From the NCBI RefSeq assembly GCF_029626025.1, contig NZ_JARUBF010000001.1, forward strand, positions 3,596,001-3,660,000: a DNA stretch of 64,000 nucleotides, read 5' to 3'. This document shows positions 2,768 through 37,342 of the stretch, in pieces; position 1 is the first letter of the stretch; each line of letters starts with the position of its first letter. The translations under genes were made by a program, and so were the position numbers. The stretch is from Solwaraspora sp. WMMD406. Its GTDB lineage: Bacteria > Actinomycetota > Actinomycetes > Mycobacteriales > Micromonosporaceae. The notes below the pieces were generated by a model, which saw only the letters and a program-made list of their open reading frames with translations, did no database searches and had not been told where the DNA came from.

Positions 2768-2802
2768 GCCACCGGACCGGATCGCTGGGAGAGAGGACGC
2801 AC

Positions 2803-7998: not shown

Positions 7999-8022
7999 CC
8001 GCCGGTCGCGTTGGGAGGAGAC

Positions 8023-18401: not shown

Positions 18402-18577
18402 GGCCCGTCCGGCGAAGGTCCTGCGGTCGCGGGCCGCGCTCACCGACATGATCAACCAGGGTACGGACTCGATCCTCTTCTGCGACCTCGGTACGCTTCG
18501 GGAGCGTGCCGGCCGGTCGCTTGACTTTGTTCGGTCAGGGTCGTCCGATCACCGGGCACGGTCCGGCGATCTTGTAG
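18402..18577 (+). pseudogene. Truncated, frameshifted cas2 copy
   Basis: This segment encodes RPAKVLRSRAALTDMINQGT, then continues through DSILFCDLGTLRERA, very close to residues about 44-85 of the intact Cas2 at 38938. After that a frameshift occurs, although the DNA still matches down to the former stop (TAG 18575-18577). The first 43 or so codons, including the catalytic Asp of YDVSDD, are absent. It directly precedes a duplicated leader and the first array. No cas1 remains here. Confidence 0.85.
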
Positions 18578-21700: not shown

Positions 21701-22735
21701 CCTTCATTGAGGCTGTCGTTGAGTGCACCACGTGATGCGCACTCGGCGACGAAGTCGCAGCTCTCTCGGGAGCTGCCCTTCATTGAGGCCTGCAGGAGGT
21801 CGCCGGCGAACTAGTGCGGGCCGTCGCAGCTCTCTCGGGAGCTGCCCTTCATTGAGGCTACCCCCGGGCCGACGTGGACACGCTGCTCGCCGGGAGTCGC
21901 AGCTCTCTCGGGAGCTGCCCTTCATTGAGGCCTACCTGGAGGGTCGGGTCGGGACACTCGCGGAGGCGTCGCAGCTCTCTCGGGAGCTGCCCTTCATTGA
22001 GGCCGCTCAGCCGCGATCCGGGTGTCCGATCGAGGGTCGTCGCAGCTCTCTCGGGAGCTGCCCTTCATTGAGGCCGGGCGTCGGATGTCGACGCGTGGGT
22101 GGCGACCTGGTCGGTCGCAGCTCTCTCGGGAGCTGCCCTTCATTGAGGCGAGTTGCCGGCAGTGCTGACGTCCAGCTCCATCCGTCGCAGCTCTCTCGGG
22201 AGCTGCCCTTCATTGAGGCCAGACCGACTTCAACCCGTACCACGACCAGCCCGCACCCAGTCGCAGCTCTCTCGGGAGCTGCCCTTCATTGAGGCCCCTC
22301 CGGGGGTCCGTCTCAGCGCTCCACCGGGGCGCGCTGTCGCAGCTCTCTCGGGAGCTGCCCTTCATTGAGGCCCGGGCCGCTGGCACACCGTGATAGCGCC
22401 GACAGGTCGCAGCTCTCTCGGGAGCTGCCCTTCATTGAGGCGGGCACTTGCGCGGGGGCAGGGGCATCAGGACTCCTGCGGTCGCAGCTCTCTCGGGAGC
22501 TGCCCTTCATTGAGGCCGCTTGAGGGTGGCGGGCGGCACCACGGCGACCGGCCGTCGCAGCTCTCTCGGGAGCTGCCCTTCATTGAGGCATGACCCTCAA
22601 CCCGTGCAACCCGGCGCTACTCGCCCTGTCGCAGCTCTCTCGGGAGCTGCCCTTCATCAAGGCAGGGGGATGGTGGCGTGGGTGGGTAGGACCACGCCGG
22701 TCGCGGCTCTTGAGAGCTGTCAATCGTTAAGACCG
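18786..22735 (+). CRISPR. CRISPR array 1 (type I-G repeat), 54 repeats plus one decayed
   Basis: A 36-bp repeat beginning GTCGCAGCTC and ending TTCATTGAGGC, with an internal GCAGCTC/GAGCTGC stem. I counted 54 copies with starts from 18786 to 22628 and spacers of 33-40 bases. The 54th has CATCAAGGC near its end. A 55th, strongly decayed copy starts at 22700 and is cut by the IS element at 22731. All inner repeats are identical, so the leader-proximal side is at the left and transcription runs rightward. Spacers 22 and 23 (20341-20373 and 20410-20442) are identical. The cas genes are 8 kb downstream, and the same repeat is used in the cas-adjacent array. Confidence 0.98.
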
Positions 22736-23624
22736 TGTGTCAGTAGGGGTTGTTGCTGGTCAACAGGTTGAGTCGGTCGGCGCGGCGGTAGCAGATCAGA
22801 GCGCATGCCAGGTGGAGGAATCCGAGGTAGTGGGAAGCCTTGCGGTCGTAGCGGCGGACCAGCCGTCGGAACCGGGTCATCCACTCGAGGCAGCGTTCGA
22901 TGACGTAGCGGTGCCGGCCCAGCCGCTTCGACGACTCGACGCCCTTGCGCGCGATCCGTGCGACGATGCCGCGTGCGCGCAGCAGGTCGCGGCATTCGGG
23001 GTAGTCGTAGCCCTTGTCGCCGTGGAGTTTGGCCGGTCGTCGACGCGGCCGGCCGACCGGTTGACGCACTGGTGTGACGCCGTCGACCATGTCCTCGAGC
23101 ATCCGGTGGTCGTTGAGGTTCGCGGCGGAGACGCCCACGTGCAGCGGCAACCCGCCCCGGTCGCTCATGGCGTGGATCTTGGAGCCGGGCTTGCCCCGGT
23201 CCACCGGGCTGGGCCCGGTCAGGTCCCCCTTTTCACCGCGCGTACGTGCATGCTGTCGACACTCACCCTCGACCAGTCGATCCGCCCGGCCGCGCCGAGG
23301 ACATCGAGCGTCGCCCGGTGCAGGGCGGTCATCACCCCGGCCTCGACCCATTCGGCGAACCGGCGGTGCGCGGTGCGCCAGTGGACCGGGAACGAGGCGG
23401 GCAGCTTGCGCCACGAGCAGCCGGACTCCAGTACGTACAGGATCGCCGCGAGCATCGCCCGGTCATCGGTCCGCCGCCGGCCGCCGCCCTGGTGCCTTTC
23501 CGGGTGCGGCGGCAGCAACGGCCGCGCGAGGTGCCACAACGCGTCGGGGCAGTACTTCTCCACGTCATCCACACCACGTCAACGAATGACCTTGAACTTC
23601 AACAACCCCAAACGACACACGGTC
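22731..23624 (-). mobile_element. IS5-family insertion sequence (IS427-like), complete
   Basis: An 894-bp element. The 25-bp terminal inverted repeats start GACCGTGTGTC and match at 22 of 25 positions (22731-22755 against 23600-23624). It is flanked by the 3-bp direct repeat TAA (22728-22730 and 23625-23627), which fits the TNA target preference of IS427-type elements. The transposase is split in two frames on the - strand. The element sits inside the last, decayed repeat of array 1. Confidence 0.9.
22740..23572 (-). CDS. IS5-family transposase, two overlapping frames joined by -1 frameshift
   Basis: The first frame (23572 to 23219, 117 residues) has the DUF4096-type N-terminus LWHLARPLLPPHPERH and the first catalytic Asp in RVSVDSMHVR. 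The second frame continues GDLTGPSPVDRGKPGSK, has the second Asp in KLHGDKGYDYPECR, and ends with RHYVIERCLEWMTRFRRLVRRYD, where the Glu completes the DDE triad. The frames meet at AAAAGGGGGA on the coding strand, a classic slippery run, so a programmed -1 shift rather than a damaging mutation is likely. The element could be active. Confidence 0.88.
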
Positions 23625-23690: not shown

Positions 23691-23885
23691 TCAGTGGGGG
23701 AGGGTGCCGGACTGCAGGGCGGTGGTGAAGGTGCCCCACTGGGAAGTGCTGAACGTCAGGGTGGGGCCGGTGCGGTCCTTGCTGTCGCGTACCTCGGCGT
23801 GGCCGGCGTGCCGGCGGGCCTCGACGCACGCTCCGCCGTTGCCGCCGCTGCGGCTGGAGGTGAACCAGGGGGTGTCGGGCTTCAT
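23691..23885 (-). CDS. DUF397 protein
   Basis: A 64-residue small protein with the DUF397 pattern: W-F-TSSRSGGNGGACVEARR, then VRDSKDRTGPTLTFSTSQW. I chose the ATG at 23885, which overlaps the XRE regulator stop by 4 bases. DUF397 proteins are co-encoded with XRE/DUF5753 regulators throughout actinobacteria and in some cases act as their partners in antibiotic and sporulation control (BldB/WhiJ-type systems). The specific target here is unknown. A sister pair lies at 43796-44808. Confidence 0.88.
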   Translation of the reverse strand: MKPDTPWFTSSRSGGNGGACVEARRHAGHAEVRDSKDRTGPTLTFSTSQWGTFTTALQSGTLPH

Positions 23886-24709
23886 CGCAGGTGCTCCTCG
23901 ATCGGGATCGACTGCTCGCGGACCTCGCGGAAAATTCGACGGTACTCGGCCAACTCGTCCGGACGCTCCAGGTAGCGAGCGCCCACATGGGACTCGACGT
24001 AGGCGATGTCGGGGTCGTCGGGGTCGGCGAAGTCGAGCAGAATGAACGGGCTGACCATCGCGGCGTGGGCACCGGCGGACCACGGCAGGACGCGGATCTC
24101 CACCCGGACCCGTCGACCCACGCTGGCCAGGTGGGCGCGTTGCTCGGCCATCACCGCCGGGCCGCCGACCTCACGGGCCAACGCGCCAGCACCGAGGACC
24201 GCGACGATCCTCGCCGGATCGGCCCGGTCGTAGTAGGAAATCTGCCGATCGAGCCGCAGCGACACCAGCCGCTCGATCTGCTGCTCGGATGCCTGCCGGT
24301 CGGCCGCCCGGAACACGGCGCGCATGTAGTCCGGCGTCTGGAGTAGACCGTGGATCAGCTCAGGGTCATACAGATGGATCTCGGTGGCGGCGGCTTCGAG
24401 GCCGAGATAGAGCTGAAACCAATCCGGTACGGCGTCACCGTGCGACTCCCACCAACCGTGCTCGTCACACGCGGCGGCCAGGCGGGTCAACGCGTCCGTC
24501 GTCTCCGGGTCGGCACCGTAGAACCAGCACAGACCCCGGACCGTGTTCATCTTCACCGGGAACTTGCCGTTCTCGATGCGCCACAACGTCGTACGGGAAC
24601 AGACCTTGGCCCGCTCCACTTCCTGCTCGGTGCGGGCCGCCTCCTCGCGCAGTCGGCGCAGTCGTCGCCCCAGCTGACGGCGCACCACAGTCGGTCCGGT
24701 GACCGGCAT
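23882..24709 (-). CDS. XRE-family regulator with DUF5753 (Scr1-like)
   Basis: A 275-residue regulator. The N-terminal helix-turn-helix spans about 8-60 (RLRRLREEAARTEQEVERA, TLWRIENGK), followed by a DUF5753 domain with the usual LGLEAAATEIHLYDPELIHGLLQTPDYMRAVF stretch. I chose the ATG at 24709 (MPVTGPTVV), preceded by GGAAGG; a frame extension to 24748 is weaker. It overlaps the DUF397 gene. A perfect TGTTTCA-AAA-TGAAACA palindrome 45 bp upstream is a likely autoregulatory operator. Confidence 0.85.
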   Translation of the reverse strand: MPVTGPTVVRRQLGRRLRRLREEAARTEQEVERAKVCSRTTLWRIENGKFPVKMNTVRGLCWFYGADPETTDALTRLAAACDEHGWWESHGDAVPDWFQLYLGLEAAATEIHLYDPELIHGLLQTPDYMRAVFRAADRQASEQQIERLVSLRLDRQISYYDRADPARIVAVLGAGALAREVGGPAVMAEQRAHLASVGRRVRVEIRVLPWSAGAHAAMVSPFILLDFADPDDPDIAYVESHVGARYLERPDELAEYRRIFREVREQSIPIEEHLR

Positions 24710-24753
24710 CGCTTCACCTTCCTTTCGTCCGACACACCCACCACCCATGCCGA

Positions 24754-24770: not shown

Positions 24771-25162
24771 CCGGACCGGGTTGGCCGCCGAATTCGCACG
24801 TCAGAGCTGTGACAGATCGGCGTCCACGATCGAGTGTGCCGTACGCGGGCGGAAAATGTGGTCCGCCACCAGGGTGGAATCGACGCGGGTTCGCTGAGAA
24901 AGTTGATCAAAGCTGAGCGGCGGTCGCCAAGCCGGCCGATCATCCGCACCGCTCATTCGATCCTGCCGGTGGGCTGACGTGACGCCCCTTGATCAGGTCA
25001 CGGCTGGTGCCAGGCGGCGGCGATACACCGACGTTCGGATGATTGCCGATCCGATCACCGCTTCGCCACTATGGGTGCCGACTTCTCACGTTAGGCGGGT
25101 CGTTGGTCTATTCGCTCTCGCAGGTCCCAACTGGTCAGGTGGTGTGGATCAGGCACCTACGC
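24771..25162. other. Intergenic region between divergent operons
   Basis: About 390 bases without a convincing gene. It separates the leftward XRE-DUF397 operon from the rightward DUF559-ATPase operon and should hold both promoters. I see no clear repeat, riboswitch or RNA gene. The open frame of the nuclease gene extends into it as far as a TTG at 25043, but this part lacks the codon bias of the rest. Confidence 0.5.
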
Positions 25163-26113
25163 GTGAGTGACTGGGAACAGGGATTATTGACAGCAACTGA
25201 TGCTCCGGCGGTCGTCGTTCACCGTACCGCCGGGTTGTCGGGCCAGCAGGCGACCGTCGCCGCCGTCCTCGACGAGCTGGAGGCGACCGCCGGCCAGCTT
25301 TTCCCCGCCTGGCTGCCCGGAGCCGAAGGGATCACGACGTCTGCCGGTGCCGCGCCGGTCGCCGTACGCAGGCTCGCTGTCGCCCACGCCGCCGCGACCG
25401 GCCAGTCCGGCCCGTTCCTCGCGGACCTGGCGGCCGCCGCGCTCACCGGGTCGGCGGCCCACACCCGGCGGCATCCGCCGGAGGTACGGGCACGCGGGCT
25501 GGCCCGGGTCATCGCGGCCAGCTTCGGCCGGCCGGCGTGCGCGTTGGTGCTACGGCCGCCCGATCATCTTGACGAGGCGGCCACGCTGGCGCTGGCCCAG
25601 GCGGCGCAGTGGCTGGTCGACCACGGTCGGCTGACTGTATGGATCGACAGCGATTCGCCGTACGGCATCGAGAGCCAGCCGCGTGCGACGGAGCCTCCGT
25701 CGGTGGCCCGGCCGCGTCGTGAACCGCGCGCCGGAACCCGACGGACGAGGGACGTCGTCGGCAGGCCGCATCCGAGCAGTCGCGCCGAGGTGGTGCTCGA
25801 AGCCGCCTTGGCCCGCCGGACCTGGGCGGCCGGCCGCGCCTGGAACCACACCATCAGACCGGGTCCGCTGGTCAACCCCGTCCGGGTCGACCTGCTGTGG
25901 AAACGGGAACGGTGCGTCGTCGAGATCGACGGAGACGACCACCGTACGCCGGCGAAGTTCACCGAGGACCGGCACCGCGACGTGATGCTCCAGATCAACG
26001 GGTACGCCGTACTCCGTTTCACCAACACCCAGGTGCTCGACGACATCGACAACGTGCTCGTGCTCCTGCAGCAGTTCCTCGCCACCCGTCGCCGTATCAG
26101 AAAAGGACCCTGA
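25163..26113 (+). CDS. DUF559 (Vsr-like) endonuclease-domain protein
   Basis: A 316-residue protein from GTG 25163. The C-terminal 110 residues form a DUF559 domain: PVRVDLLWKRERCVVEIDGD, then DRHRDVMLQINGYAVLRF. This carries the Asp, the E-x-D and the Arg/His-rich helix of the Vsr/PD-(D/E)XK nuclease fold. The N-terminal 200 residues match nothing I know; they are Ala-rich, apart from a W-LVDHGRLTVWIDSD stretch. The start is uncertain: the frame is open to a TTG at 25043. It is two bases from the next gene, and the three genes form one operon next to CRISPR-Cas. A DNA-cutting effector role is inferred. Confidence 0.75.
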   Translation: MSDWEQGLLTATDAPAVVVHRTAGLSGQQATVAAVLDELEATAGQLFPAWLPGAEGITTSAGAAPVAVRRLAVAHAAATGQSGPFLADLAAAALTGSAAHTRRHPPEVRARGLARVIAASFGRPACALVLRPPDHLDEAATLALAQAAQWLVDHGRLTVWIDSDSPYGIESQPRATEPPSVARPRREPRAGTRRTRDVVGRPHPSSRAEVVLEAALARRTWAAGRAWNHTIRPGPLVNPVRVDLLWKRERCVVEIDGDDHRTPAKFTEDRHRDVMLQINGYAVLRFTNTQVLDDIDNVLVLLQQFLATRRRIRKGP

Positions 26114-26114
26114 C

Positions 26115-26846
26115 ATGTCGGACGAGAAGTTGACCTCGGTGGAGACGGCCGCTCTCTTCATTCTCCTCACCGAGGCCGGCGAAGCGCTGAACGTGAAGCT
26201 CGCCCAGGAGCATGGCTGCAAGCTGGAGAAGCGTTCGCGCGAGAAGCTGGAAAAATTGAGACTGATCAAGGTCGGGGGCACCCCTCGCCGGCTCGTCCTG
26301 CGGCTGACCGAGGCGGGTCGGGATCGTTGCCGCGCCGAATTCGCCGCCGGATCGCCGCCACCACGGTCGGGGCCTATGGGTGGCGCGCTCTACGCACTCC
26401 TGCTGACGGTGGATCGTTTCCTCACCGCCCGGGGGCTCAGCCTCGGTGACTTCGTGACCGCCTCGAACGCGCCGGTCGCCGAGGACCTACCGGCCGTGCC
26501 CGCCGCGTCGGCGGCTGCCGAGCCAACAAGCGCCGAGCCGGCGTTGGACGGGCCGGCGTTGGACGGGCCGGCGTTGGACGAGCCTGCCGTCGAGGAGCGG
26601 GTACGGGCGGCGTACCACAAACTCGCACCCCGGACCGGCGACCTGGTCAACCTTGCCGACCTGCGCGACCTGGTCGTCGACCTCGACCCGGCCGACGTCG
26701 ACGCGGCCCTGCGCCGGCTGCACCGCCGACCCGGTGTCACCCTCGTGCCGGAAGCCAACCAGAAGGCCCTCGACGCACGGACCCGGGCCGCCGCCGTCGT
26801 GGTCGGTGACCAGCCCAAGCACATGATCACCATGGCGGCATCATGA
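26115..26846 (+). CDS. Winged-helix-like small protein of the ATPase cassette
   Basis: A 243-residue protein. Residues about 5-75 (ETAALFILLTEAGEALNVKL, then REKLEKLRLIKV) resemble a winged-helix DNA-binding domain ending in a beta-wing (RRLVLRLTEAGRDR). The middle has a linker of three 15-bp DNA repeats encoding LDGPA/LDEPA (about 26536-26582). The C-terminal 80 residues (RVRAAYHKLAPRTGDLVNLADLRDLV..) look like a second helical domain with a DPADVDAALRRLHRRPGVTLVPE stretch. It begins two bases after the nuclease stop and overlaps the ATPase by 4 bases. It is probably a DNA-recognition or adaptor subunit of the cassette; the function is unproven. Confidence 0.65.
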   Translation: MSDEKLTSVETAALFILLTEAGEALNVKLAQEHGCKLEKRSREKLEKLRLIKVGGTPRRLVLRLTEAGRDRCRAEFAAGSPPPRSGPMGGALYALLLTVDRFLTARGLSLGDFVTASNAPVAEDLPAVPAASAAAEPTSAEPALDGPALDGPALDEPAVEERVRAAYHKLAPRTGDLVNLADLRDLVVDLDPADVDAALRRLHRRPGVTLVPEANQKALDARTRAAAVVVGDQPKHMITMAAS

Positions 26847-29800
26847 CCGAAGCGGCGCTGAAAGCACTCACCCATCTGCAGTTCAGCTACACCCCGACCA
26901 TGAACGACGTCTGGCGGCCGGCGGCGTCCCACGTCGACGGGCTGCACACGGACGTGCTCCGGACCATCCTCGACGGCCTGGCACTGGCCAAGAAAAGCCG
27001 GGACACCAGCCCTATCGGTGTCGCCGTGCAGGGCCAACGCGGCGCGGGCAAGACCCATCTGCTCAGCCGGGTCCGCGAGCTGACCCAGCTCGACGGCGGC
27101 TACTTCTTCCTGATCAACCTGCTCGACGCCAACGCCTTCTGGCGCAGCGCCGCAGTGTCGATCGTCGACGGCCTGCACCAGCCGGTGGACGACGACGGCA
27201 CCACCCAGCTGCAGATGTTCCTGCACCGACTCGCCGACGGCCTCGAACTGTCCGTGGTGACCCGGATGGCGGTGACCGGCCGGGCCCCGATGACCGTGGA
27301 CCGGCTCAACGAGTTCGTGGCCGCCCTGACCTGGTCCCACCGCCGGATCGGGATCGGCTGCCGGGACACCGCCCGCGCGCTGACCCTGCTCGCCGGCATC
27401 GACCCGCGAGCCCAAGACGTCGCCAACTCGTGGCTGCTCGCCGGCGACGAGGCGGAGCCCGGTGAACGGGCCGCCTGGGGGATCCGGCCGGCCCGGCGGC
27501 TGCCGCAGGAGATCGTCTCGGATGTGTCACGCCTGCTGGCGCTGACCGGCCCGTCGGTCATCGCGGTCGACCAGGTCGACGGCCTGATCGCGCAGGTCGC
27601 CAACCGCAGCCACGTATCCGGGCCGCCCAGCACCGGTGCGGAGGAGGACGGCTGGCGGGCAGCGGTCTCGATCGACCAGGTCGCCAGCGGTCTGATGGAG
27701 CTACGGGAGCTGACCCAACGGACGCTGACGGTGCTGTCGTTGCTGCCCGTTTCCTGGGCGTTGATCAAGAGCCACGCCGTCGACACCGCCCAGGACCGGT
27801 TCCGGGAAACCGCACCGCTCGAATCGATCCCGGACGCCGACCTCGGCCGCACCCTGGTCGAACGCCGACTCGCGGCGCACTATGCCGACGTCGGGTTCGT
27901 GCCGCCGTACCCGAGTTGGCCGGTGCGACCCGAAGCGTTCGCCGACGCCCCGGATTTCACCCCACGGCAGCTGCTCATCAACGTCGAGAAGCACATTCGC
28001 GCGTGCGTACGCGACGGCCAGGTCACCGAGATGACCACGCTCACCACGCTCACTCCGGCCGCCGCCGGGAAGCCGACTGCCGGGAAGCCGACTGCCGGGA
28101 AGCCGACTGCCGGGAAGCCGACGTCGTCGACACGTACGCCGACGACACCGACAGCTGACGGCTCGCCGTTGGGCAGGCTCGATCAGCGGTACGCCGAACT
28201 GCGCGCGAAGGCAGACACCGCCGGACTGCTCGACCCGGCCAACGAGGACACCCAGGTGCCGCAGCTGCTCGCCGCCGGGCTGCGCGCGTGGACCTGGGAA
28301 AGCGCGGACACCGACTTCGACCAGGACACCATCCCGGCCCGCCGGCCGGTGCTGCACGCCCGGCTGCGACGCACCCTCGACGACACGACCGGCGACGAGG
28401 CCCACTGGGCGTTTCGGGCCATCGCCGCGCAGCACTACAACGGCGAGCTGGCCCGGCTGCGCAACGCCTGCGTCGCCGCCGGGCTGGCCCACGGGGTCGC
28501 CAACCGGCGACTGTTCATCCTGCGCAACGACGAGTGGCCACGAACACCTGCCGTACGCAAGGCGGTGGACGATTTCGTCGCCGCCGGTGGCCGGACGCTG
28601 CCGGTCACTGACGACGACCTGCGCAGCCTGGTCGCGCTGCACGCGTTGCTCGCCGAGGAACCGGACGGACTGCAGGCCTGGCTGGCGGACCGGCGTCCCG
28701 CCTCCCGTACCGCCTTGTTGTCGACCGCGCTCGCCGACGCCGTCCGCGAACCGGCCGCCGACGAACAACCGACCGTTGAACCGGCCGGCGTCGTACCCGA
28801 TCGCGAACCGGCCGCCGACGGACCCGGGGTGCGGCTGCGGGTCGGCGTCGACTTCGACAACGGCGATCCCGTACGGGTGGAACTGGCCGCGCTGCGCAAG
28901 CACATCGCCGTCTACGCCGGCTCCGGATCCGGCAAGACCGTCCTGATCCGGCGACTGGTCGAGGAGTGCGCGCTGCTCGGCGTATCCGCGATCGTCCTGG
29001 ACCCCAACAACGACCTGGCGCGGCTCGGCGACCCGTGGCCGGAGCAGCCGGCCGCGTGGGGTGACGGCGACGCGCGGGCCGCCGCCGACTACCTTGACGC
29101 AACCGACGTCGTGGTGTGGACGCCGGGCCGCGAGGGTGGCCGACCGTTGACGTTCCAGCCGCTTCCCGACTTTTCTGGCGTCAACGACGATCCGGACGAG
29201 TTCACCCAGGCAGTGGACAGCGCCGTCGACGCCCTGGCCCCGCGCGCCAAGGTGGCCGCCAACACCGCCAAGGCGATGCGTGGACAGGCCGTACTGCGGC
29301 AGGCGCTGCGCCACTACGGCCGACACGCTGACACGTCGACCCTCACCGGGCTGATCGCGCTGCTCCGCGATCTGCCGGACGGGGTGAGCGAGCTGACCGG
29401 AGCGGTAGCGATCGCCGCCGACCTCGCCGAAAACCTGGAGGCGGCGCGGATCAACGACCCGATGTTCGGCGGTACGGGGGAGTCTGCCGACCCCGGAACG
29501 CTGCTCACCCCGGCTCCGGGTAAACGCGCCCGCGTCTCCGTGATCAGCTTCATCGGACTGCACGGCGAGGAGAAACGGCAGGGCTTCGTCAACCAGCTGC
29601 AGCTGGCGCTGTTCTCCTGGATCAAGCGGAACCCGGCCGGTGACCGACCGCTGGGCGGTCTGCTGGTGATGGACGAGGCGCAGACCCTCGCGCCCTCCGG
29701 GCCGATCACGCCCTGCACCCGCAGCACACTGATGCTCGCTTCCCAGGCCCGTAAGTACGGCCTCGGCCTGGTCTTCGCCACCCAGGCACCGAAGGGCCTG

Positions 29801-30091
29801 CACAGTCAGATCCCCGGTAACGCGGCGACCCAGTTCTTCGGGCTGCTCAACGCTCCGGTGCACATCGAAGCGGCCCGCGAGATGGCCCGCTTCAAAGGCG
29901 GTGACGTGCCGGACATATCGCAGCTGACCAGCGGACAGTTCTACGTCGCGGTCGAGGGGCAACCGTTCCGCAAGACCCGTACGCCGCTCTGCCTCACCCA
30001 CCACCCGGCCAGCCCACTGACCGCCGAAGACGTCCTCACCCGCGCCCAGCAGCCTTCATCTCCAGCGCATAACAAAGAGTCGGCCGAGTGA
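26843..30091 (+). CDS. Large protein with two P-loop ATPase domains (N-terminal AAA-like, C-terminal HerA/FtsK-like)
   Basis: A 1082-residue protein. The N-terminal domain has Walker A GQRGAGKT (64-71) and a Walker B-like VIAVDQVDGLI near 240. A linker of four 15-bp repeats encoding AGKPT (about 28063-28122) follows near residue 410. The C-terminal domain has Walker A GSGSGKT (about 692-698) and Walker B LLVMDEAQTLAPS near 940, followed by a FATQAPKGL sensor-like strand; this is the pattern of HerA/VirB4/FtsK-type DNA-translocating ATPases. The first domain recalls the ATPases of BREX-like systems only in general style. It overlaps the winged-helix gene. An assembly with the DUF559 nuclease, analogous to the known SIR2-HerA and DUF4297-HerA defence pairs, is my inference. 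Confidence 0.75.
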   Translation: MTEAALKALTHLQFSYTPTMNDVWRPAASHVDGLHTDVLRTILDGLALAKKSRDTSPIGVAVQGQRGAGKTHLLSRVRELTQLDGGYFFLINLLDANAFWRSAAVSIVDGLHQPVDDDGTTQLQMFLHRLADGLELSVVTRMAVTGRAPMTVDRLNEFVAALTWSHRRIGIGCRDTARALTLLAGIDPRAQDVANSWLLAGDEAEPGERAAWGIRPARRLPQEIVSDVSRLLALTGPSVIAVDQVDGLIAQVANRSHVSGPPSTGAEEDGWRAAVSIDQVASGLMELRELTQRTLTVLSLLPVSWALIKSHAVDTAQDRFRETAPLESIPDADLGRTLVERRLAAHYADVGFVPPYPSWPVRPEAFADAPDFTPRQLLINVEKHIRACVRDGQVTEMTTLTTLTPAAAGKPTAGKPTAGKPTAGKPTSSTRTPTTPTADGSPLGRLDQRYAELRAKADTAGLLDPANEDTQVPQLLAAGLRAWTWESADTDFDQDTIPARRPVLHARLRRTLDDTTGDEAHWAFRAIAAQHYNGELARLRNACVAAGLAHGVANRRLFILRNDEWPRTPAVRKAVDDFVAAGGRTLPVTDDDLRSLVALHALLAEEPDGLQAWLADRRPASRTALLSTALADAVREPAADEQPTVEPAGVVPDREPAADGPGVRLRVGVDFDNGDPVRVELAALRKHIAVYAGSGSGKTVLIRRLVEECALLGVSAIVLDPNNDLARLGDPWPEQPAAWGDGDARAAADYLDATDVVVWTPGREGGRPLTFQPLPDFSGVNDDPDEFTQAVDSAVDALAPRAKVAANTAKAMRGQAVLRQALRHYGRHADTSTLTGLIALLRDLPDGVSELTGAVAIAADLAENLEAARINDPMFGGTGESADPGTLLTPAPGKRARVSVISFIGLHGEEKRQGFVNQLQLALFSWIKRNPAGDRPLGGLLVMDEAQTLAPSGPITPCTRSTLMLASQARKYGLGLVFATQAPKGLHSQIPGNAATQFFGLLNAPVHIEAAREMARFKGGDVPDISQLTSGQFYVAVEGQPFRKTRTPLCLTHHPASPLTAEDVLTRAQQPSSPAHNKESAE

Positions 30092-30692: not shown

Positions 30693-31928
30693 GTGCGTTC
30701 GTTGGATCTTGATGTGTTGCTGGCCGCCGGGTCGCCCGGCGGGTCGAGCTGTTTGACGTCGACGACCACGTTGGAGCCGGCCGGTGGCCGGCACACGTCG
30801 GTCGCGCCGGCCAAGTTCGCCCCCGAGCGCGGGAAGGGGTCCGTGTACGCGTACGAGCAGCGGTTCCTCGGTGACGAGAGCCGTTACGCCGCGATCATCG
30901 ACAGCAAGCAATCCCAGCTCAACCGCGCCGAGCAGGCCCTTGCTCAGGCCATCGAGGATGGACATCCGCTGCTGTCGCGGGTGCCGCACGTGCAGGTCAC
31001 CTACGAGCGGGACGGCGCGGTCGAGCGCTACTACGACCTTACGCTGCCACATAGGATCTTCGACGGTCACATTCGCGCCGGCACGATCGACGGGGTGCCG
31101 ACGACGCAGACTCCGGCGTACCGGGCGGTGCGCGACGCCAGCCCGGCCAACGCGCGGGCGCTGCTGGAAACCAGCCCGATCACGCTGGTCTTCGGCGGCT
31201 GGGATTCGAGCCGGCGCAGCCGGCAGGGCCGCTGGCGTAGCGCCCTGGTCGGGGAGATCGTCGGTTTCGTCGCGGCGAGCCGGGACGACACCGGCGTGTT
31301 GAGCGCGCCACGGCCCGCGTTGCGCGGTGGCGCGCGGGTCGACCCGGTCGGCATGCAGATCAACCTCGACAAGAAGACGATGACCGAGACGGCGACCCGG
31401 CAGCAGGCCGAGTTGAGCCCCGGCACGTACAGCAAGATCGTCAAAACTGCCAACGCGATCAAGGTCGGCACCGCGGAGTCGGCGTCCGCGCTCGGTCTCG
31501 GTGGCATCCCGCCGACCCTGGACCAGCTGGCCGGCGTCGCCTGCGACACCATCATCCGTACGCACGTGTTGTCGTTCGCGACGCTGCGGCAGATGCGCTT
31601 CGGGGCCGGCGTCGACGGCGACGCCGCCTGCCGGGCGCTGCTGGCCGCGTTGGCGCTCAACGCGCTCGCCCGCTCCGACGCCGAACTGTGCCTGCGGGCC
31701 AACTGCGACCTGGTCGAAGCCGAGCAGCCGAAGGTCCGGCTCGACCAGCGCGGCGGGTCGTTCGCCGACGTCGAGCCGCTGAGCATCGACGCCGCCGACC
31801 TGCTGCTCGGCGAGGCCCTCGCGCACGCTGAGAAGGTCGCCGACGTCACCTGGTCGGGCCTGGCGATGCGGGTCGTCGGCAACCCGGACATCGTCTCCGG
31901 CGCGCTCGAAACGGGTGACGACGCGTGA
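30693..31928 (+). CDS. csb1: Csb1, Cas7-like backbone protein of type I-G Cascade
   Basis: A 411-residue protein of the Csb1 (GSU0053, Cas7g) RAMP family. Recognisable features are FAPERGKGSVYAYEQRFLGD, LVDSKQSQ-type IIDSKQSQLNRAEQAL, PVGMQINLDKKTM and the conserved LRLRANCDLVE-like stretch near the C-terminus. It would polymerise along the crRNA to form the backbone of the interference complex. It starts at GTG 30693 after GAAGGGA. It overlaps csb2 by 4 bases and is the first gene of the cas operon. Confidence 0.88.
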   Translation: MRSLDLDVLLAAGSPGGSSCLTSTTTLEPAGGRHTSVAPAKFAPERGKGSVYAYEQRFLGDESRYAAIIDSKQSQLNRAEQALAQAIEDGHPLLSRVPHVQVTYERDGAVERYYDLTLPHRIFDGHIRAGTIDGVPTTQTPAYRAVRDASPANARALLETSPITLVFGGWDSSRRSRQGRWRSALVGEIVGFVAASRDDTGVLSAPRPALRGGARVDPVGMQINLDKKTMTETATRQQAELSPGTYSKIVKTANAIKVGTAESASALGLGGIPPTLDQLAGVACDTIIRTHVLSFATLRQMRFGAGVDGDAACRALLAALALNALARSDAELCLRANCDLVEAEQPKVRLDQRGGSFADVEPLSIDAADLLLGEALAHAEKVADVTWSGLAMRVVGNPDIVSGALETGDDA

Positions 31929-33454
31929 GCTTCGCGATCGTCGCCGAACCGGTCCTCGGCGTCTACAAGGGGCACGTCGGCAGCGGTGAGCTCGACCCGC
32001 TGCCGTCGCCGGCCCGGCTGCACGCCGCCCTGCTCTGCGCTGCCGCCCAAGGGGTGCGAGCGGTCGCCGACGGCGACAGTCTCCAGCCGTGCGACACCGA
32101 CCGGGAGGCGCTGCGCTGGCTGGAGGCCAACCCGCCGGACGGCATCGCCGTGCCGCAGACCCTCCCCAACGGCGGCGGCGCGGCGACGGCGTACCGGCAG
32201 GAGGGTTTGATCGTCAAGGAAGGTCGCGGCCCGCTGGCGGAGAAGCTGGTCGGCAAGCCGGCGGTGACCGGTGTCGCGGTGACCGGACGGTACGCGTGGA
32301 CGTGGGAGCAGCCGCCACCGGAGCCGGTGGCCGCCGCGTTGACCGCGCTCTGCCCCGAGGTGCCCTACCTCGGCACGACCGAGTCGCCGGTACGGCTCGT
32401 CGTCGCCGACGCCGAGCCGACGCACCGGCTCGACCCCGACGCGGACCTGTTCACCGGCGACGGCCTCGACCTGGCGGTGGCGACCGCCGGCCGGTCCGAC
32501 GCCCTCGAAGCCGCGCACCGGGAGACGACGGCCGTGCCGCCGGTGAAATCCGACGCGCACCGCTCCAGCGAGAAGACGGTCGCGCCGCCGACCGTGACCG
32601 CCGGCGTCGAACTCGGCCGCTACACCCCGCGAACCTCGCCGCCTCCGCTGACGCCGTGGACGTCGGTGCTGCTGTTCCGCATGCGTGAGCCGGTCCCGCC
32701 GCAGCTGCGGGTGCGGTACGCGGTCGCCGTACACCGGGCGTTGATCTCGCTCGTCGGCGACGGCGCGCCCGCGATCCTCACCGGTACCTACGCGGACGAC
32801 GCGCGACAACCGGTCAACCGCTGCGCGATCCAGTTCGTCGGCCCGAACGCGCCGCACGTCGGCGGCACCGCGATGGCGCTGCTGCTGCCCCGCGACGCCG
32901 ACGACATCGACCTGACCCTGATCCGGATGGCGGCACACCACCTGCGGCAGGTCAAGGTCGCCGCCGGCCCGTTCACCCTCGACCCGCCGGTCGAGGTCGC
33001 GGCCGACGAGTTCTGGCCGGAGCCGGCCGCCGGCACCCAGCGGTGGTGGCAGACCGACCCGGTCGCCGTACCCGACAGTCGGCCGCCACGCGGACACGTC
33101 CGGAACTGGACGCTGGCCGACGCCGCCGCGTTGTCGGTCGCGCTGGTCTGGCGCGACGAGTTCGAGTCGGTGCCGGAACGGGGCGAAGCGCGCTATCAGG
33201 CGTTGGCGCGGGCGGCAGCCGAGCGCGGGGTCCGGGTCGAATCAGCGGTACGGGTGATGGACGGCGACGTCGGCCGGTACGTCCACAAGGTCCACAGTGA
33301 CACGATCATCCAGCCGTACCGGGCGGTGCTCAACCTCGGCAACCTGACCGGCCCTCGGACGATCGCCGCCATCGGACAGAGCCGCCACCTCGGCGGCGGC
33401 CTACTCGTGCCCCGGGACCTGCCGGAGGCCATCGCCCGCCGGCTGGCCCGGTGA
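31925..33454 (+). CDS. csb2: Csb2, Cas5-Cas6 fusion of type I-G
   Basis: A 509-residue protein of the Csb2 (GSU0054) family, which in type I-G combines the Cas5 role (binding the crRNA 5' handle) with the Cas6 role (pre-crRNA cleavage at the repeat stem). The N-terminal third (ARLHAALLCAAAQGVRA, EALRWLEANPPDGIAVP) is typical. The C-terminal part contains GPRTIAAIGQSRHLGGGLLVP, a glycine-rich RAMP-type loop with a His that could be catalytic. No separate cas6 or cas5 gene is present, which agrees with the fusion. It overlaps both its neighbours by 4 bases. Confidence 0.85.
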   Translation: MSFAIVAEPVLGVYKGHVGSGELDPLPSPARLHAALLCAAAQGVRAVADGDSLQPCDTDREALRWLEANPPDGIAVPQTLPNGGGAATAYRQEGLIVKEGRGPLAEKLVGKPAVTGVAVTGRYAWTWEQPPPEPVAAALTALCPEVPYLGTTESPVRLVVADAEPTHRLDPDADLFTGDGLDLAVATAGRSDALEAAHRETTAVPPVKSDAHRSSEKTVAPPTVTAGVELGRYTPRTSPPPLTPWTSVLLFRMREPVPPQLRVRYAVAVHRALISLVGDGAPAILTGTYADDARQPVNRCAIQFVGPNAPHVGGTAMALLLPRDADDIDLTLIRMAAHHLRQVKVAAGPFTLDPPVEVAADEFWPEPAAGTQRWWQTDPVAVPDSRPPRGHVRNWTLADAAALSVALVWRDEFESVPERGEARYQALARAAAERGVRVESAVRVMDGDVGRYVHKVHSDTIIQPYRAVLNLGNLTGPRTIAAIGQSRHLGGGLLVPRDLPEAIARRLAR

Positions 33455-36282
33455 GCGTCGGCCGCGCCGACTTCGGCGCCTTCTTCGCCGCCGTCCGCGC
33501 CGGACAGCAGCCGTTCCGCTGGCAGGAGCGGCTGCTCGACCACCTGCTGGCCACCGGCCGCTGGCCGGACCAGCTGGTCGCGCCGACCGGCGCCGGCAAG
33601 ACCAGCGTCATCGACGTACACGTGTTCGCCGTGGCGATGATGGCCGCCGGCCACCCCGTACGGGTGCCGCGCCGGCTCGCCCTCGTCGTCGACCGCCGGG
33701 CCCTCGTCGACGACCAGCACCGCCACGCGACGACGATCGCCGACCTGCTGGCGGCCGCCCGAGACGACCGGACCGTGCTGGCTCGGGTCGCCGCCGCACT
33801 CGGCGGCCTGCGTACCGGGCAGGTGGATCCGACCGCGAGTCCGCTGACGGTGGCGTTGCTGCGCGGCGGCGCACCACCGTCACGGTCCTGGCTGGACGAG
33901 CCGGTTGGTGCCGCCGTGCTCTGCGCCACCCCGGACATGTGGGGTTCGCGGCTGCTGCTCGCCGGCTACGGGTCGCGGGCACAGGCCCGGCCGCGCGAAG
34001 CCGGACTGCTCGCCTACGACACCGTCGCCGTCGTCGACGAGGCGCACCTGTCCCGGCAGCTGGTGACCACCGCCCGCCGGGTCGCCGAGCTGGCCGTCGT
34101 CGCCGACGAGCAGCTCGGCGTACCGGTGCTGCAGGTCGTCGAGACCACCGCCACGCCGCACGCCGACGCCGGGGTCGCGGTCGGCGTCGAAGCCGACGAT
34201 CTGGCCGTGGACGCGCCGCTGCGGCAGCGGCTGACCACCCCGAAGCCGGTCACCCTGCTGCCGGTCCCGACCTGGCCGATCCCGCGCAGCGGCCCGGCCG
34301 CCAAGGCGGGCGTCGCGGCGCTCGCCGACGAGGCGGTACGGCTGCGCGAGGCGCACGGCGCGACGGTCGGCTGTTTCGTCAACACCGTCGCGGTCGCCGC
34401 CGCCGTCGCCGCCGAACTGCGGGCGCGTGACCTCAAGGTCGAGCTGATCTGTGGGCGGCTGCGGCCGTACGACGTGGATCGGCTGCGGCCGCCGGCGTCG
34501 AACCTGCTCAGCCTCGGCGGTGACCCGACGGTCGACGTCCTGGTCAGTACGCAGAGCCTCGAAGTCGGTGTCGACCTTGATCTGGCGGCCGCCGTGACCG
34601 AGCTCGCTCCCGGTGGGGCGCTCGCCCAGCGGGCCGGCCGGGTCAACCGGCTCGGCGTCCGTCCCGCCACCGAGGTCAGCGTCGTGGTGCCGGCCGGCGA
34701 GCTGCCCGACGCGGCCCAGTCCGGGCCGTACCAGCGGGACGACCTGGCGGCCGCCCTCACCTGGCTGGCCGGGCGGGCCGCCGACCCGGCGGGCCTCGCC
34801 CCGTGGGCGTTGCGCGACCCACGGCCGCCGGCCCCGGCGCTGCGTCGCGACCTGCTGCAACGGCTGGAGTTGGCCCAGGCGTGGCACCTTGCTCGGACCA
34901 GCGACGACCTCGCCGCCGCGCCGGACGACCTCGACCTGTGGCTCTCCGACGACCTCGACGCAGCCGACCACGAGTTCGGCATCGTCGTGCGACGGGCGCT
35001 GCCAGCCGACACCTCAGACGCCGTACGGCTGATCGAAGCCCTGCCGCCCCGCCCGCACGAGGTCTTTCCGGTGTCGATCCGGCAGTCGCCGGAGATCAGC
35101 AGGCGGATCGACGACATCGCTACGGCAGCTGTCAGGGCCCGCCGGGACCCGCCGCCCACGCCGATACTGGTCCGGCCCGGAGAGTCCGCGCCGCGCCCGT
35201 TGACCGCCGGAGAGCGGATCCGCCCTGGTGATCAGCTGGTCATCGACGACACGACCGAGCTGTTCACCTCCGGCGTCGTCGACCCGGCCGGCACCGAACG
35301 CGTCGACGACGTGCTCGACGCCCTCGCCGACCCGAAACCCGGCGACATCGTGCTCCGGATCGAACGCGACACCGCCGCGCACCGCCGGTTCCTCGACGCC
35401 GTCGCCGCCACCATCGTCGACCAGGACGACCCGGAGAGCCATGGTGCCGTGGAACCCGACCCGGAGGAGGTCGCCCAGCTGCTGCGGATGCACCGCGACG
35501 AGCTGACGCCGCGCCCGATGGTGATCGCGGCGGCCGCCCTGCTCGACCGGCCGGAGACCGAACGGGCCGGGGCTCAGGTGATCCCGCACTGGCAGGATTC
35601 CGATGACGGCAAGCCGGAACTCGCCCGGCTGATCGTCGTCGACCTGCGCAAGGCCACCGTCGACGACGAGTTGCGCCAGACGTGGACCCCGCGCCGCCGG
35701 AAGGTGCTGCTGAGCCAGCACGCCGACGCCGTCGCCGAACGCGCCGAAACGGTCGGCGACCGGCTCGGCCTTCCCGCCGAACTGGTGGCGGTGCTGAGGC
35801 TGGCCGGCCTGCACCACGACGACGGTAAATCGGATGAACGCTTCCAAAAGCGGCTCGCCGCCGACCCGACCGAGCTGCTGGCCAAGAGCAAAGTACGGGA
35901 CGCACGACGGGACCGGAAGCTGCTGAAGGAGTCCCGGCTGCCGACCGGATGGCGCCACGAGCAACTCTCCGTCGTCCGGGCCTGGCCGAACCTGTCCACC
36001 CAGGACGATGCCAACCGAGAGCTGATCGCCCGGCTGGTCGGCACCAGCCACGGACACGGCCGGCACGGCTTCCCCCACACCGCCGGGCAGCTCGTCGGCA
36101 CTGTCGACACCACCGCCATTGACGCTACCGCCGTCAACGCCACCGCCGTCGACCTGTTCGACGAAGGCCGGTGGGACGAACTGATCGAACGCACCCATCG
36201 CCGGTGGGGGGTGTGGGGCTGCGCCTACCTGGAAGCGCTGCTCCGCGCCGCCGACGGGCAGGTATCCGCGGAGGGATCGTGA
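33451..36282 (+). CDS. cas3: Cas3 helicase-nuclease with C-terminal HD domain (type I-G)
   Basis: A 943-residue protein. A superfamily 2 helicase occupies roughly the first 480 residues: Walker A APTGAGKT (44-51), the DEAH box VVDEAHLSRQ (about 196-199) and motif VI-like GALAQRAGRVNRLG. The HD nuclease follows at the C-terminus with HHDDGKSDERF (His788, His789, Asp790, Asp791) and a later THS-type HGHGRHGF segment. Helicase-then-HD is the order reported for type I-G, reversed compared with I-E and I-C. It unwinds and degrades target DNA after recognition by Cascade. Confidence 0.9.
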   Translation: MSVGRADFGAFFAAVRAGQQPFRWQERLLDHLLATGRWPDQLVAPTGAGKTSVIDVHVFAVAMMAAGHPVRVPRRLALVVDRRALVDDQHRHATTIADLLAAARDDRTVLARVAAALGGLRTGQVDPTASPLTVALLRGGAPPSRSWLDEPVGAAVLCATPDMWGSRLLLAGYGSRAQARPREAGLLAYDTVAVVDEAHLSRQLVTTARRVAELAVVADEQLGVPVLQVVETTATPHADAGVAVGVEADDLAVDAPLRQRLTTPKPVTLLPVPTWPIPRSGPAAKAGVAALADEAVRLREAHGATVGCFVNTVAVAAAVAAELRARDLKVELICGRLRPYDVDRLRPPASNLLSLGGDPTVDVLVSTQSLEVGVDLDLAAAVTELAPGGALAQRAGRVNRLGVRPATEVSVVVPAGELPDAAQSGPYQRDDLAAALTWLAGRAADPAGLAPWALRDPRPPAPALRRDLLQRLELAQAWHLARTSDDLAAAPDDLDLWLSDDLDAADHEFGIVVRRALPADTSDAVRLIEALPPRPHEVFPVSIRQSPEISRRIDDIATAAVRARRDPPPTPILVRPGESAPRPLTAGERIRPGDQLVIDDTTELFTSGVVDPAGTERVDDVLDALADPKPGDIVLRIERDTAAHRRFLDAVAATIVDQDDPESHGAVEPDPEEVAQLLRMHRDELTPRPMVIAAAALLDRPETERAGAQVIPHWQDSDDGKPELARLIVVDLRKATVDDELRQTWTPRRRKVLLSQHADAVAERAETVGDRLGLPAELVAVLRLAGLHHDDGKSDERFQKRLAADPTELLAKSKVRDARRDRKLLKESRLPTGWRHEQLSVVRAWPNLSTQDDANRELIARLVGTSHGHGRHGFPHTAGQLVGTVDTTAIDATAVNATAVDLFDEGRWDELIERTHRRWGVWGCAYLEALLRAADGQVSAEGS

Positions 36283-37340
36283 CCGACTTCGTACTGCCGC
36301 ACGCCGACCCGTACACGATGTTGTCGCACATGGCGCTGTACGGGCTCGCGGCCATCGCCGAAGACGCCGGCCTCGACGACGTCCGGCTCTCCTGGACGCC
36401 CGGCATGAACCGCCGTCCGGTGCTCAGCGCCCCGCAGGCCACCCCGGAGACGATCGGCGACATCGTCCGCCGGCACGCCGCCCGCCACGACGACCCGGAC
36501 GCCTGGCCCAGCCGGCAACTGCGCGACGGCGAGCCCCGAGCCCTGATGAGCCCCCGGATCAGCGTCATCACCACCGACGACGGCTGGCGATCACTGCAGG
36601 ACCGGCGGCACGCCGTCCTCGACCAGCTCACCCAGGCGCGGGCGCTGCTCGACCTGCGGCTGATCGCCGCACTCGGCGAACCGGCCTACTGGAGCCGCAA
36701 CGGCAAAGGCGACCGGCTGCAGGACGACGGTGCCAGCCGGCTGGAGATGCAGCCCCGCAACCAGGGCTCCGAATTCGTCGGCAACCGGCTCCGGCCACTC
36801 GCCGCAGCGGTCGCCGCCCGTACCGCCGACGAGATCGCCGACGGCCTGACCGGCCGCCGGGTCCGCGACGAAATCGGCAAAGACCAACCCGCCAGCCGTA
36901 CGCCGACCGGCTTCGCCGCCCCCGGCCCGACCGACAACGCCCTCGCCTGGTGCGCGCTCTGGGGCATCTCGCAGTTCCCCATCGCCCAGCGCGTCAACGC
37001 CACCGCCACCGCCAGCATCCACCTTGGACGGGCCACCGGCGGCTGGTTCTGCGTACCCGTGTGGACCGGGCGGTGGCGCACGGCCCGGCACCGGACGGTC
37101 CTCGCCAGCGGACAGCTCACCAGGTTCGCGGCGGCCGGGCTGTCACCCAAGGCGCTCGGGATGCCGTCGGGCAGCACACCGGTCGACGGTGAACCCGCCC
37201 GAGGGTGGCTGGCGGCCCGAGGTGTCACCTCCGTCGTCCGGTTCCCGGTGCAGCGCTTCGGCAGCGACAGCGCCCCCGAACGCCGGGCCATGCGCGGCGA
37301 GCTCATCAAGACCGAGCGGCCACTCGTCGTGAGACGCTGA
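36279..37340 (+). CDS. Cas8-like / Csb3-type subunit of type I-G
   Basis: A 353-residue protein beginning DFVLPHADPYTMLSHMALYGLAAI, which I associate with the Csb3/Cas8g2-type protein that replaces the larger Csx17 large subunit in some I-G loci. It has DRLQDDGASRLEMQPRNQGSEFVGNRLRPL in mid-sequence. By position (after cas3, before cas4/cas1) it should be the large-subunit or PAM-recognition component. I am sure it is part of the cas operon and less sure of its exact family name. It starts at GTG 36279, overlapping the cas3 stop; the next gene begins 3 bases after its stop. Confidence 0.7.
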   Translation: MTDFVLPHADPYTMLSHMALYGLAAIAEDAGLDDVRLSWTPGMNRRPVLSAPQATPETIGDIVRRHAARHDDPDAWPSRQLRDGEPRALMSPRISVITTDDGWRSLQDRRHAVLDQLTQARALLDLRLIAALGEPAYWSRNGKGDRLQDDGASRLEMQPRNQGSEFVGNRLRPLAAAVAARTADEIADGLTGRRVRDEIGKDQPASRTPTGFAAPGPTDNALAWCALWGISQFPIAQRVNATATASIHLGRATGGWFCVPVWTGRWRTARHRTVLASGQLTRFAAAGLSPKALGMPSGSTPVDGEPARGWLAARGVTSVVRFPVQRFGSDSAPERRAMRGELIKTERPLVVRR

Positions 37341-37342
37341 CG

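Follow-up and report, generated by a model that had tools for sequence, protein, structure and literature searches.

What do three tightly packed genes between a CRISPR array and a set of type I-G cas genes do for their host, and are they part of the CRISPR system beside them? The locus lies in the window, the whole stretch of 64,000 nucleotides analysed here. A preliminary description had placed this operon between array 1 and the cas genes; that layout stands, with array 1 ending at 22662, the cas genes starting at 30693 and all three closely packed frames present in the list of open reading frames (ORFs). The features, in window coordinates, are as follows.

18786–22662, plus strand: CRISPR array 1, 54 repeats, repeat type shared with array 2, located upstream of the triad.
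25103–26113, plus strand: gene 1, nuclease subunit, 336 amino acids (ORF list; start from the alignment of relatives; Pfam DUF559; fold).
Gene 1, residues ~1–165: P-loop-like domain, Walker A motif missing (predicted fold).
Gene 1, residues ~166–215: linker (low confidence in the predicted structure).
Gene 1, residues ~216–336: endonuclease domain of DUF559/EDxHD-Vsr type (Pfam; fold, 3r3p and 3hrl).
26115–26846, plus strand: gene 2, winged-helix protein, 243 amino acids (ORF list; winged-helix profile of the N-domain).
Gene 2, parts: N-terminal winged helix at residues ~5–82, then a linker that varies, then WHC, a domain conserved at the C-terminus (~158–242).
26843–30091, plus strand: gene 3, double ATPase, 1082 amino acids (ORF list; Pfam AAA_16, AAA_22 and DUF87; PADLOC mad8; HerA chains in the PDB).
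Gene 3, N-terminal part: AAA module, Walker A at residue 64 and Walker B-like motif at residue 239.
Gene 3, residues ~440–632: middle domain, putative fold.
Gene 3, residues ~660–1070: C-terminal HerA/FtsK translocase, Walker A at residue 692 and Walker B-like motif at residue 940.
30693–39240, plus strand: type I-G cas genes (cas7g, cas5/6g, cas3g, a gene in the cas8 position, cas4-cas1, cas2), directly downstream of the triad.
39451–42510, plus strand: CRISPR array 2, 43 repeats, downstream of cas2.

The repeat count of array 1 leaves out an isolated degenerate repeat at 17553 that had brought the script's count to 55. Family models assign cas7g, cas5/6g and cas3g, and with them type I-G; the labels of the gene in the cas8 position, cas4-cas1 and cas2 come from position and reading. 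Genes 2 and 3 overlap by four bases (26843–26846), as first described, and genes 1 and 2 are separated by one base (26114) rather than the two given originally.

The description of gene 1 as a DUF559 nuclease-domain protein is borne out by a Pfam match that exceeds the curated cut-off (E = 7.9e-12) and by a catalytic set (D263, E274, D276, H280 and D293) whose D/E/D/H/D pattern holds in all 22 relatives aligned; its nuclease fold is common to site- or modification-specific cutters (3r3p, PvuRTs1I). The start had been put at GTG 25163, which would drop about 20 residues, SLSQVPTGQVVWIRHL, that are alignable in relatives; we therefore moved it to TTG 25103, the best-fitting start, which gives 336 residues with the stop ending at 26113. 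The N-terminal stretch of some 200 residues, said before to belong to no recognised family, indeed has no family match above that family's cut-off in Pfam and defence-model scans, and Foldseek gives a weak likeness (E = 0.04–0.5) between its predicted fold and P-loop NTPases, namely RdrA and ABC ATPases.

Gene 3 likewise answers to its initial description as a 1082-residue protein with two P-loop modules, the second HerA/FtsK-like: the DUF87/HerA match is over the Pfam cut-off (E = 3.3e-8), the profile matches HerA chains in the PDB and residues 674–1037 match the PADLOC model mad8 (E = 4.3e-17). AAA_16 and AAA_22 are found in 10 of 10 members, among which ORC-CDC6-like appears weakly in two (best E = 0.13); the same family reaches E = 0.0081, below cut-off, in the paralogue L014. 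The predicted model of residues 1–632 is of low quality (pLDDT 62; Foldseek matches no better than E = 0.54), with helices and short strands across 440–632 and pLDDT below 50 at 489–533 and 545–555, and we therefore claim neither an Orc/CDC6 identity nor an inactive restriction endonuclease (REase) for this protein. Strict Walker patterns are present in 44 (A1), 42 (B1), 45 (A2) and 47 (B2) of 48 loci, so that some copies diverge. No relatives of gene 3 were found in phage records at E = 1e-5 or, by a pattern-based search, in viral contigs.

For gene 2, the Pfam scan of the single sequence gave no match, and the view of it as a small DNA-binding-like protein draws its support from the N-domain profile (39 loci), which matches winged-helix chains in the PDB, closest to AspA (E = 1.7e-4) and more weakly to chains of MarR/ArsR type. 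The C-terminal WHC domain is probably a second winged helix: its best Pfam match is MCM4_WHD (E = 0.0018), seen in 4 of 39 members. Scans of individual N-domains and WHC domains also return numerous unrelated weak names. Calmodulin and myosin light chain matches of the whole-protein profile (best E = 0.007 among the 60 PDB matches listed) were taken as chance, as were the calmodulin-type chains that are the sole type among the 60 PDB matches listed for the WHC profile (best E = 0.0015). WHC also occurs in prophage portal-fusion proteins, head-module proteins and one tape-measure protein. It is not a phage-specific domain, since 13 plasmid records—two triad loci and the query's own record among them—have it too, in proteins annotated as HTH proteins, helicases, a ribonuclease G/E-like protein and hypotheticals; a pattern-based search with WHC found no relative in viral contigs. 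The domain could be a contact to incoming DNA at an entry or packaging machine, or the target at which a phage decoy is aimed. Among same-genus loci, dS is 0.57 and 0.55 in the gene 2 N-domain and linker and 0.18–0.29 in the other seven protein segments tested, which points to allele exchange; positive selection, considered for this gene, was set aside because dS in these two segments is itself high.

The three genes travel together, as had been proposed. Genes 2 and 3 co-occur in the identical 27 of 61 related genomes, and gene 1 stands directly upstream of gene 3 in 17 of its 22 places there. Gene 2 was detected in 46 of 49 loci, its three misses being a contig edge that still shows the gene's end and two I-G loci with a remnant triad or none. 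Plasmid searches with gene 1 and with gene 3 return the identical three records, and the triad is also carried by a Methylobacterium plasmid. The reading frames are conserved between genera and also in a second phylum, and the nine protein segments compared among same-genus loci have dN/dS of 0.13–0.43, so that the frames are more than chance; gene boundaries in relatives are from simple ORF scoring, except in L096, which is annotated. The core formed by genes 2 and 3 is patchy in distribution: it is present in 26 of 37 sampled genomes of the same family (the window's own counted), where this compact module is thus frequent, in 1 of 24 genomes of the same order and in 5 of 60 of a class-wide sample. 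No constant housekeeping pathway, which would have spoken against a defence role, was seen with the genes, and the neighbours of defence type include type I-G cas genes, AbiU/AIPR, Trypco1 with a trypsin-like/WD40 protein and, in one scanned locus, GmrSD. These observations support the view that the three genes are one conserved unit with defence-type neighbours.

Within this unit, comparison of 48 loci shows that the constant core is the predicted winged-helix and double-ATPase pair, and that the DUF559 nuclease belongs to a set of partners that replace one another. The nuclease accompanies the core in 24 loci, a divergent trypsin-like/WD40 protein in eight and AbiU/AIPR in five; ten loci, two at contig ends and all four from Mycolicibacterium among them, show none of these three, one keeps a remnant, and none has two partner classes together. 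The partner classes cluster on the ATPase tree. The AbiU/AIPR abortive-infection proteins, missing from the window's triad, lie directly downstream of the core (two of the five loci scanned; AbiU E = 7e-110 for one AIPR partner), and Trypco1 was found beside the WD40 protein partner in a scanned locus. The module has the look of a defence kit, little known and with exchangeable parts, that one CRISPR lineage has adopted.

Our best reading is a guide-independent DNA-capture and cleavage module that entered a type I-G locus a single time, and we hold it probable, if well short of certain, that the triad acts on its own against invaders, seizing and cutting their DNA without a guide as a second layer beside type I-G. 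The winged-helix protein would recognise invader DNA or a DNA–protein complex, the N-terminal AAA module would load the machine, the HerA ring would pump duplex DNA, and the nuclease, attached by way of its P-loop-like domain, would cut the DNA as it is pumped; none of these steps would need a CRISPR guide. Since AbiU or the trypsin-like/WD40 protein takes the nuclease's place elsewhere, the same sensor-motor core would there trigger a different outcome. In its favour are the joint occurrence of the genes, the conserved nuclease residues, the mutual exclusion of the partner classes and their clustering on the ATPase tree, the defence-type character of the partners and the precedent of HerA–nuclease pairs. 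The patchy core, the loci with none of the three partners, the diverged Walker motifs, the poor model of gene 3 residues 1–632 and the negative searches of phage records and viral contigs are observations that weigh against capture and cleavage. So does the finding that no modification gene is seen, which leaves self/non-self discrimination without explanation in this scheme.

How close is the tie to CRISPR? The triad might be a functional accessory of type I-G that, for example, makes fragments for spacer acquisition or breaks down DNA opened by Cas3g. Among 150 genomes, a recognisable triad lies upstream of cas7 in 11 of 13 I-G loci, and the I-G-linked ATPases form one clade on the ATPase tree; together these comparisons show a link between one triad clade and the type I-G cas genes. 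In one locus, an insert of ~9 kb that carries type III-B genes has displaced neither the triad nor the cas side, and pairwise distances of the nuclease and ATPase track those of the cas proteins (r = 0.84–0.97, 11 loci), a correlation confounded by shared species history. However, 13 of the 24 nuclease loci are without I-G cas genes in the fetched stretch (one, L063, has them about 9 kb further), and among the 13 I-G loci the triad is broken in G006, a fragment in G108 and absent in G026 while the I-G cas ORFs persist in all three, so that the triad is an accessory and not a part of the cas core. A close Cas5/6g occurs only in the window's own genome in a phylum-wide sample of 80, so the link was examined, bar some loci, within one family. 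We consider a functional role in type I-G unlikely. We are similarly doubtful of a bolder version, in which this I-G lineage has a built-in guide-independent HerA module that cooperates with cas, the core being a sensor-motor whose output—DNA cutting, AbiU or protease—is set by partner exchange. The naturally occurring I-G loci with, without or with a broken triad make it testable whether a second, guide-free DNA-cutting layer is of benefit.

The core could instead sense invasion and activate a partner directed at the host cell, with harm to the host in place of restriction of the invader. AbiU and the trypsin-like/WD40 protein with Trypco1, two of the three partner classes, are of suicide or effector type. 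The window's clade, however, pairs a DNA nuclease of 3r3p- and PvuRTs1I-like fold with a DNA translocase, as would be expected if pumped DNA were cut directly, and we regard such an abortive-infection device as rather improbable here. Natural partner swaps allow a test of whether the HerA core decides the target and the partner the mode of attack. Maintenance or transfer of a mobile element, by partition or DNA pumping, with defence genes reached by hitchhiking, would be in keeping with AspA, a plasmid partition protein, as the closest chain to the gene 2 N-domain, with the resemblance of the HerA/FtsK part to conjugation couplers (Pfam and model scans) and with WHC in plasmid and prophage proteins. 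Against it stand an apparently intact nuclease active site, the stable I-G cas link in one clade and, by reading, no relaxase or partition gene beside the window's triad; this explanation seems to us very improbable.

Several known systems resemble the triad in part. As a whole it matches no PADLOC system. MADS, reported to act together with CRISPR-Cas, offers the best match to the HerA part of gene 3 in mad8; no other mad model matched among the seven proteins scanned. The HerA–NurA repair pair is not recovered (helicase_HerA 22.5 bits against a cut-off of 970; no NurA at E up to 1). HerA–nuclease pairs are known anti-phage machines, and HerA-DUF4297 and SIR2-HerA (PMC12198126) share with the triad a HerA-type ATPase paired with an enzymatic partner. 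Unlike them, the triad adds an AAA module and a winged-helix subunit; the Pfam scan of gene 1 (E up to 1) gives DUF559 but neither SIR2 nor DUF4297, and the scores for the two HerA antiphage models, 15.3 and 9.8 bits, are far below their cut-offs, 800 and 850. BREX-related capture (BRC; PMC12839542) likewise joins a HerA/FtsK translocase to other ATPases, a wHTH protein and an effector; unlike BRC, the triad has no PglZ, DUF6079 or DUF4007 match at E up to 1 (Pfam).

The preliminary statement that no named system has this composition was too strong, because Orc/CDC6-linked 'HerA-FtsK capture' systems have been described computationally in the main text of PMC10853773, with an Orc/CDC6-type AAA ATPase, HerA/FtsK, REase and wHTH in mobile neighbourhoods; they are proposed to capture invader DNA, and their component fusions vary. 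Our search, which covered neither preprints nor most subscription papers, found no literature uniting HerA, DUF559 and CRISPR in such a module. The main text of PMC10853773 deals with two REase families, names neither DUF559 nor AbiU and refers to CRISPR a single time, in a general way, and its section on these systems does not describe AbiU or a trypsin-like/WD40 protein as alternative partners. Unlike the systems described there, the triad has its AAA and HerA modules in a single protein and an intact DUF559 domain as its REase. Its predicted parts nonetheless resemble these nearest described relatives, themselves a computational prediction (PMC10853773), in sharing an AAA ATPase, an REase, a HerA/FtsK translocase (in gene 3, from DUF87 and the PDB HerA chains) and a winged-helix gene (gene 2, from its N-domain profile).

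The genome carrying the window measures 7.16 Mb, with the window at positions 3596001–3660000 of its contig 1. Within it, three genes encoding a DUF559 nuclease (gene 1), a winged-helix protein (gene 2) and a double ATPase (gene 3) are followed 3′ by the type I-G genes cas7g, cas5/6g and cas3g (assigned by family models), and this triad and the cas genes together are flanked by two CRISPR arrays of identical repeat.

23882–24748, minus strand: XRE-DUF5753 regulator, between array 1 and the triad
~25103–30091, all on one strand: the three genes of the triad
26586–26840: WHC, the conserved C-terminal domain of the gene 2 protein

Only base 26114 separates gene 1 (end at 26113) from gene 2 (start at 26115), and gene 2 shares the four bases ATGA with gene 3. 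The preliminary description had placed the start of gene 1 at GTG 25163, which is too late, as the alignment of relatives extends about 20 residues upstream; TTG 25103 fits best as the predicted start. The regulator likewise precedes the triad in four loci of the same genus (90–98% identity), and ORFs at 22740–23572 (minus strand), likewise between array 1 and the triad, resemble what we take to be a split transposase. A duplication of the cas2–leader–array end of the locus probably gave rise to array 1, because a cas2 remnant (residues 44–100, ~83% identical) and a leader-like copy stand 5′ of it (18403–18574). Two adjacent repeat–spacer units of array 1 are identical (20305–20442); a scripted count gives 96 spacers, 95 of them different, and takes as a spacer the gap that follows an isolated repeat at 17553.

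Genes 2 and 3, each searched against the same set of 61 genomes, gave identical sets of 27 positives (26/37 genomes of the same family and 1/24 of the same order), and gene 1, positive in 17/61, lies directly upstream of a gene 3 place in 17 of its 22 places (merged from 27 rows), bearing out the grouping that the preliminary description had proposed. The chance of identical sets is 6e-18 assuming independent genomes; these genomes are related, hence this is no true p-value. For one genome (G019), the gene 2 match of the genome search is weak (E = 7.8e-4) and lies elsewhere, and phmmer finds gene 2 in the ATPase locus L049. The remaining five gene 1 places comprise one that runs off its contig (G008:C67), a short fragment that contains a stop (G001) and three in the fragmented genome G033 (C149, C361 and C180), of which C149 adjoins a bare ATPase tail. 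Plasmid searches with genes 1 and 3 returned the same three records, one of which, from Methylobacterium in another phylum, holds the whole triad (gene 3, 35% identity). In a class-wide sample, gene 3 occurs in 5/60 genomes, the window's own counted. In Tsukamurella tyrosinosolvens, the triad, VapBC and a helicase split the ribosomal protein cluster between rpsQ and rplN (L096, 6272–11240).

The gene 3 protein consists of an AAA-type N-terminal and a HerA/FtsK C-terminal P-loop module, the latter with mad8 as its best PADLOC match, and its middle (~440–632) is conserved. Strict Walker patterns were found in 44, 42, 45 and 47 of 48 loci; distant copies and the remnant L086 are among those that failed to match, and L035 and L062 each show one base-pattern miss. 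The linker contains AGKPT repeats, encoded by an in-frame 15-base tandem repeat (28064–28122) that is absent in all 8 relatives of alignment A2.

The N-domain of gene 2 is a winged helix by its profile (39 loci), which matches AspA (E = 1.7e-4) and, more weakly, MarR/ArsR-type chains. WHC, with the motif PExNQK...RAAAV.IG..KHLI, is more conserved than the N-domain (mean column identity 56% versus 42%) and is probably another winged helix, matching MCM4_WHD in 4/39 members (best E = 0.0018). WHC also recurs in prophage virion modules and on plasmids (13 plasmid records in all); no copy of the gene 2 N-terminal winged helix turned up in the stretches fetched. Loci with WHC include:

L099, gene 7262–9334, minus strand: 691-aa protein with two WHC copies (E = 1e-25 and 8e-22), between genes for portal and head-maturation protease
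L100, 6707–7009, plus strand: reading frame with WHC
L101, gene 2082–7172, plus strand: 1697-aa portal-fusion protein with WHC (E = 2e-18), 3′ of terminase
L102, 7815–8849, minus strand: 345-aa protein of a small plasmid with WHC

Gordonia phage Mollymur likewise has WHC in its tape-measure protein (E = 2e-5).

The C-terminal part of gene 1 encodes a nuclease of the DUF559 family (Pfam E = 7.9e-12), and its sequence matches 3hrl with E = 4.9e-8. In an AlphaFold model built from seven sequences (mean pLDDT 75.5), the nuclease is placed with the I-Bth0305I catalytic domain, NGO0050 and PvuRTs1I (Foldseek probability 1.00, E = 0.016–0.052; no Foldseek match below 0.001). D263, E274, D276, H280 and D293 are invariant in 22/22 aligned relatives, with L040 and L083 omitted for broken frames. 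As described before, the N-terminus matches no recognised family: family searches with its ~165 residues gave nothing above cut-off. Its model has weak Foldseek matches, several to RADAR's RdrA ring protein and ABC ATPases (E = 0.04–0.5), and no Walker A motif was seen; we infer that it may be a degenerate P-loop domain.

The partners of the core formed by genes 2 and 3 are exchangeable and mutually exclusive. Among 48 loci with a gene 3 match (four duplicates dropped), 24 have an upstream DUF559 nuclease, 8 a divergent large protein of the L014 type and 5 an AIPR-type protein directly downstream (L056 being counted by gene order, as stop-to-stop frames there overlap); 10 have none of these classes, 1 is a remnant (L086), and two classes stand together in none of the 48. 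L014 is a second core copy in the window's own genome, without DUF559:

L014, 3041–11881 (contig 1, ~615040–623880): core adjoined by divergent genes, which encode Trypco1 and a WD40 protein of 1354 aa whose N-terminus is protease-like

The large protein has WD40 repeats (Pfam); a protease part is suggested by our reading of the sequence and by weak PADLOC hits on protease domains (best E = 2.5e-5), and by that reading alone it may contain a STAND-like NTPase part. A Trypco1-like small gene occurs in 6/8 loci of this type. The two AIPR partners that were scanned match AIPR with E = 9.6e-44 (L052, which also matches AbiU with E = 7e-110) and 1.4e-29 (L045). The partnerless loci include two at contig ends (L043 and L046), four from Mycolicibacterium, L050, in which a CBS-domain protein follows the core immediately, and L048, which has genes for GmrSD and AAA_15 in its neighbourhood. 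In the ATPase tree of 47 rows (quick search with SH-aLRT support only; L049 and L045 on long branches, L049/L050 possibly falsely joined), the five partner states require 10 changes versus 27.9 with shuffled labels. The trypsin-type group and contig-edge locus L046 form one clade (99); clustering of the AIPR label alone is not significant (54/500 shuffles as low).

Cas5/6g occurs in 13/150 family genomes. A complete triad lies just upstream of cas7 in 9/13 I-G loci, including G061, in which the nuclease spans two frames, and a recognisable triad is present in 11/13. G006 (L040, 6788–11353) has a triad with nuclease and HerA part broken and I-G cas ORFs open within the fetched stretch; G108 retains only ATPase residues 855–1055, and no triad was found just upstream of cas7 in G026. 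In G029, a complete triad is separated from I-G cas by ~9 kb with type III-B genes:

L082, 7639–16423: Cas10, Cmr4, Cmr6, Cmr1, CARF-RelE and a 6TM membrane protein

Outside the 13, Actinoplanes regularis (L013) also has triad and I-G, its ATPase with a frame break. Eleven I-G-linked ATPases and that of G029 (L063) form one clade (100), which suggests that the triad joined type I-G in one event. Between pairs of loci, nuclease and ATPase distances correlate with those of the cas proteins (r = 0.84–0.97; gene 2 lower, 0.59–0.62; 11 loci, 55 pairs), as shared species history alone could explain. We take the triad to be an accessory of the I-G locus and an independent module by origin, because cas ORFs persist where it is missing or broken, and because other loci have a homologous triad with no cas in the stretch fetched.

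Across nine segments of same-genus loci, dN/dS is 0.13–0.43, so selection maintains the triad genes. The dS of the gene 2 N-domain (0.57) and linker (0.55) exceeds that of the other seven segments (0.18–0.29), as expected if these parts were swapped among lineages; a sensor role would fit. For HerA-DUF4297, dsDNA is reported to go through the ring to the nucleases (PMC12198126), and a capture model is outlined in PMC10853773 and PMC12839542. By analogy with these, on which the pump-and-cut step is modelled, we consider most likely, with moderate confidence, a joint mechanism in which the winged-helix protein would direct the complex to DNA of the invader. Loading would be the task of the AAA module, the HerA ring would pump the DNA and the DUF559 nuclease would cut it.

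The nearest description is that of the HerA-FtsK capture systems of the Orc/CDC6 class, whose HerA and wHTH features are both present in the triad. Results for the Orc/CDC6 AAA, the inactive REase and the REase family are equivocal, so we do not assign the triad to this class. As far as our searches of the literature show, the variant that has DUF559 and fused ATPases, the mutual exclusivity of the partners and the tie to one type I-G lineage are new.
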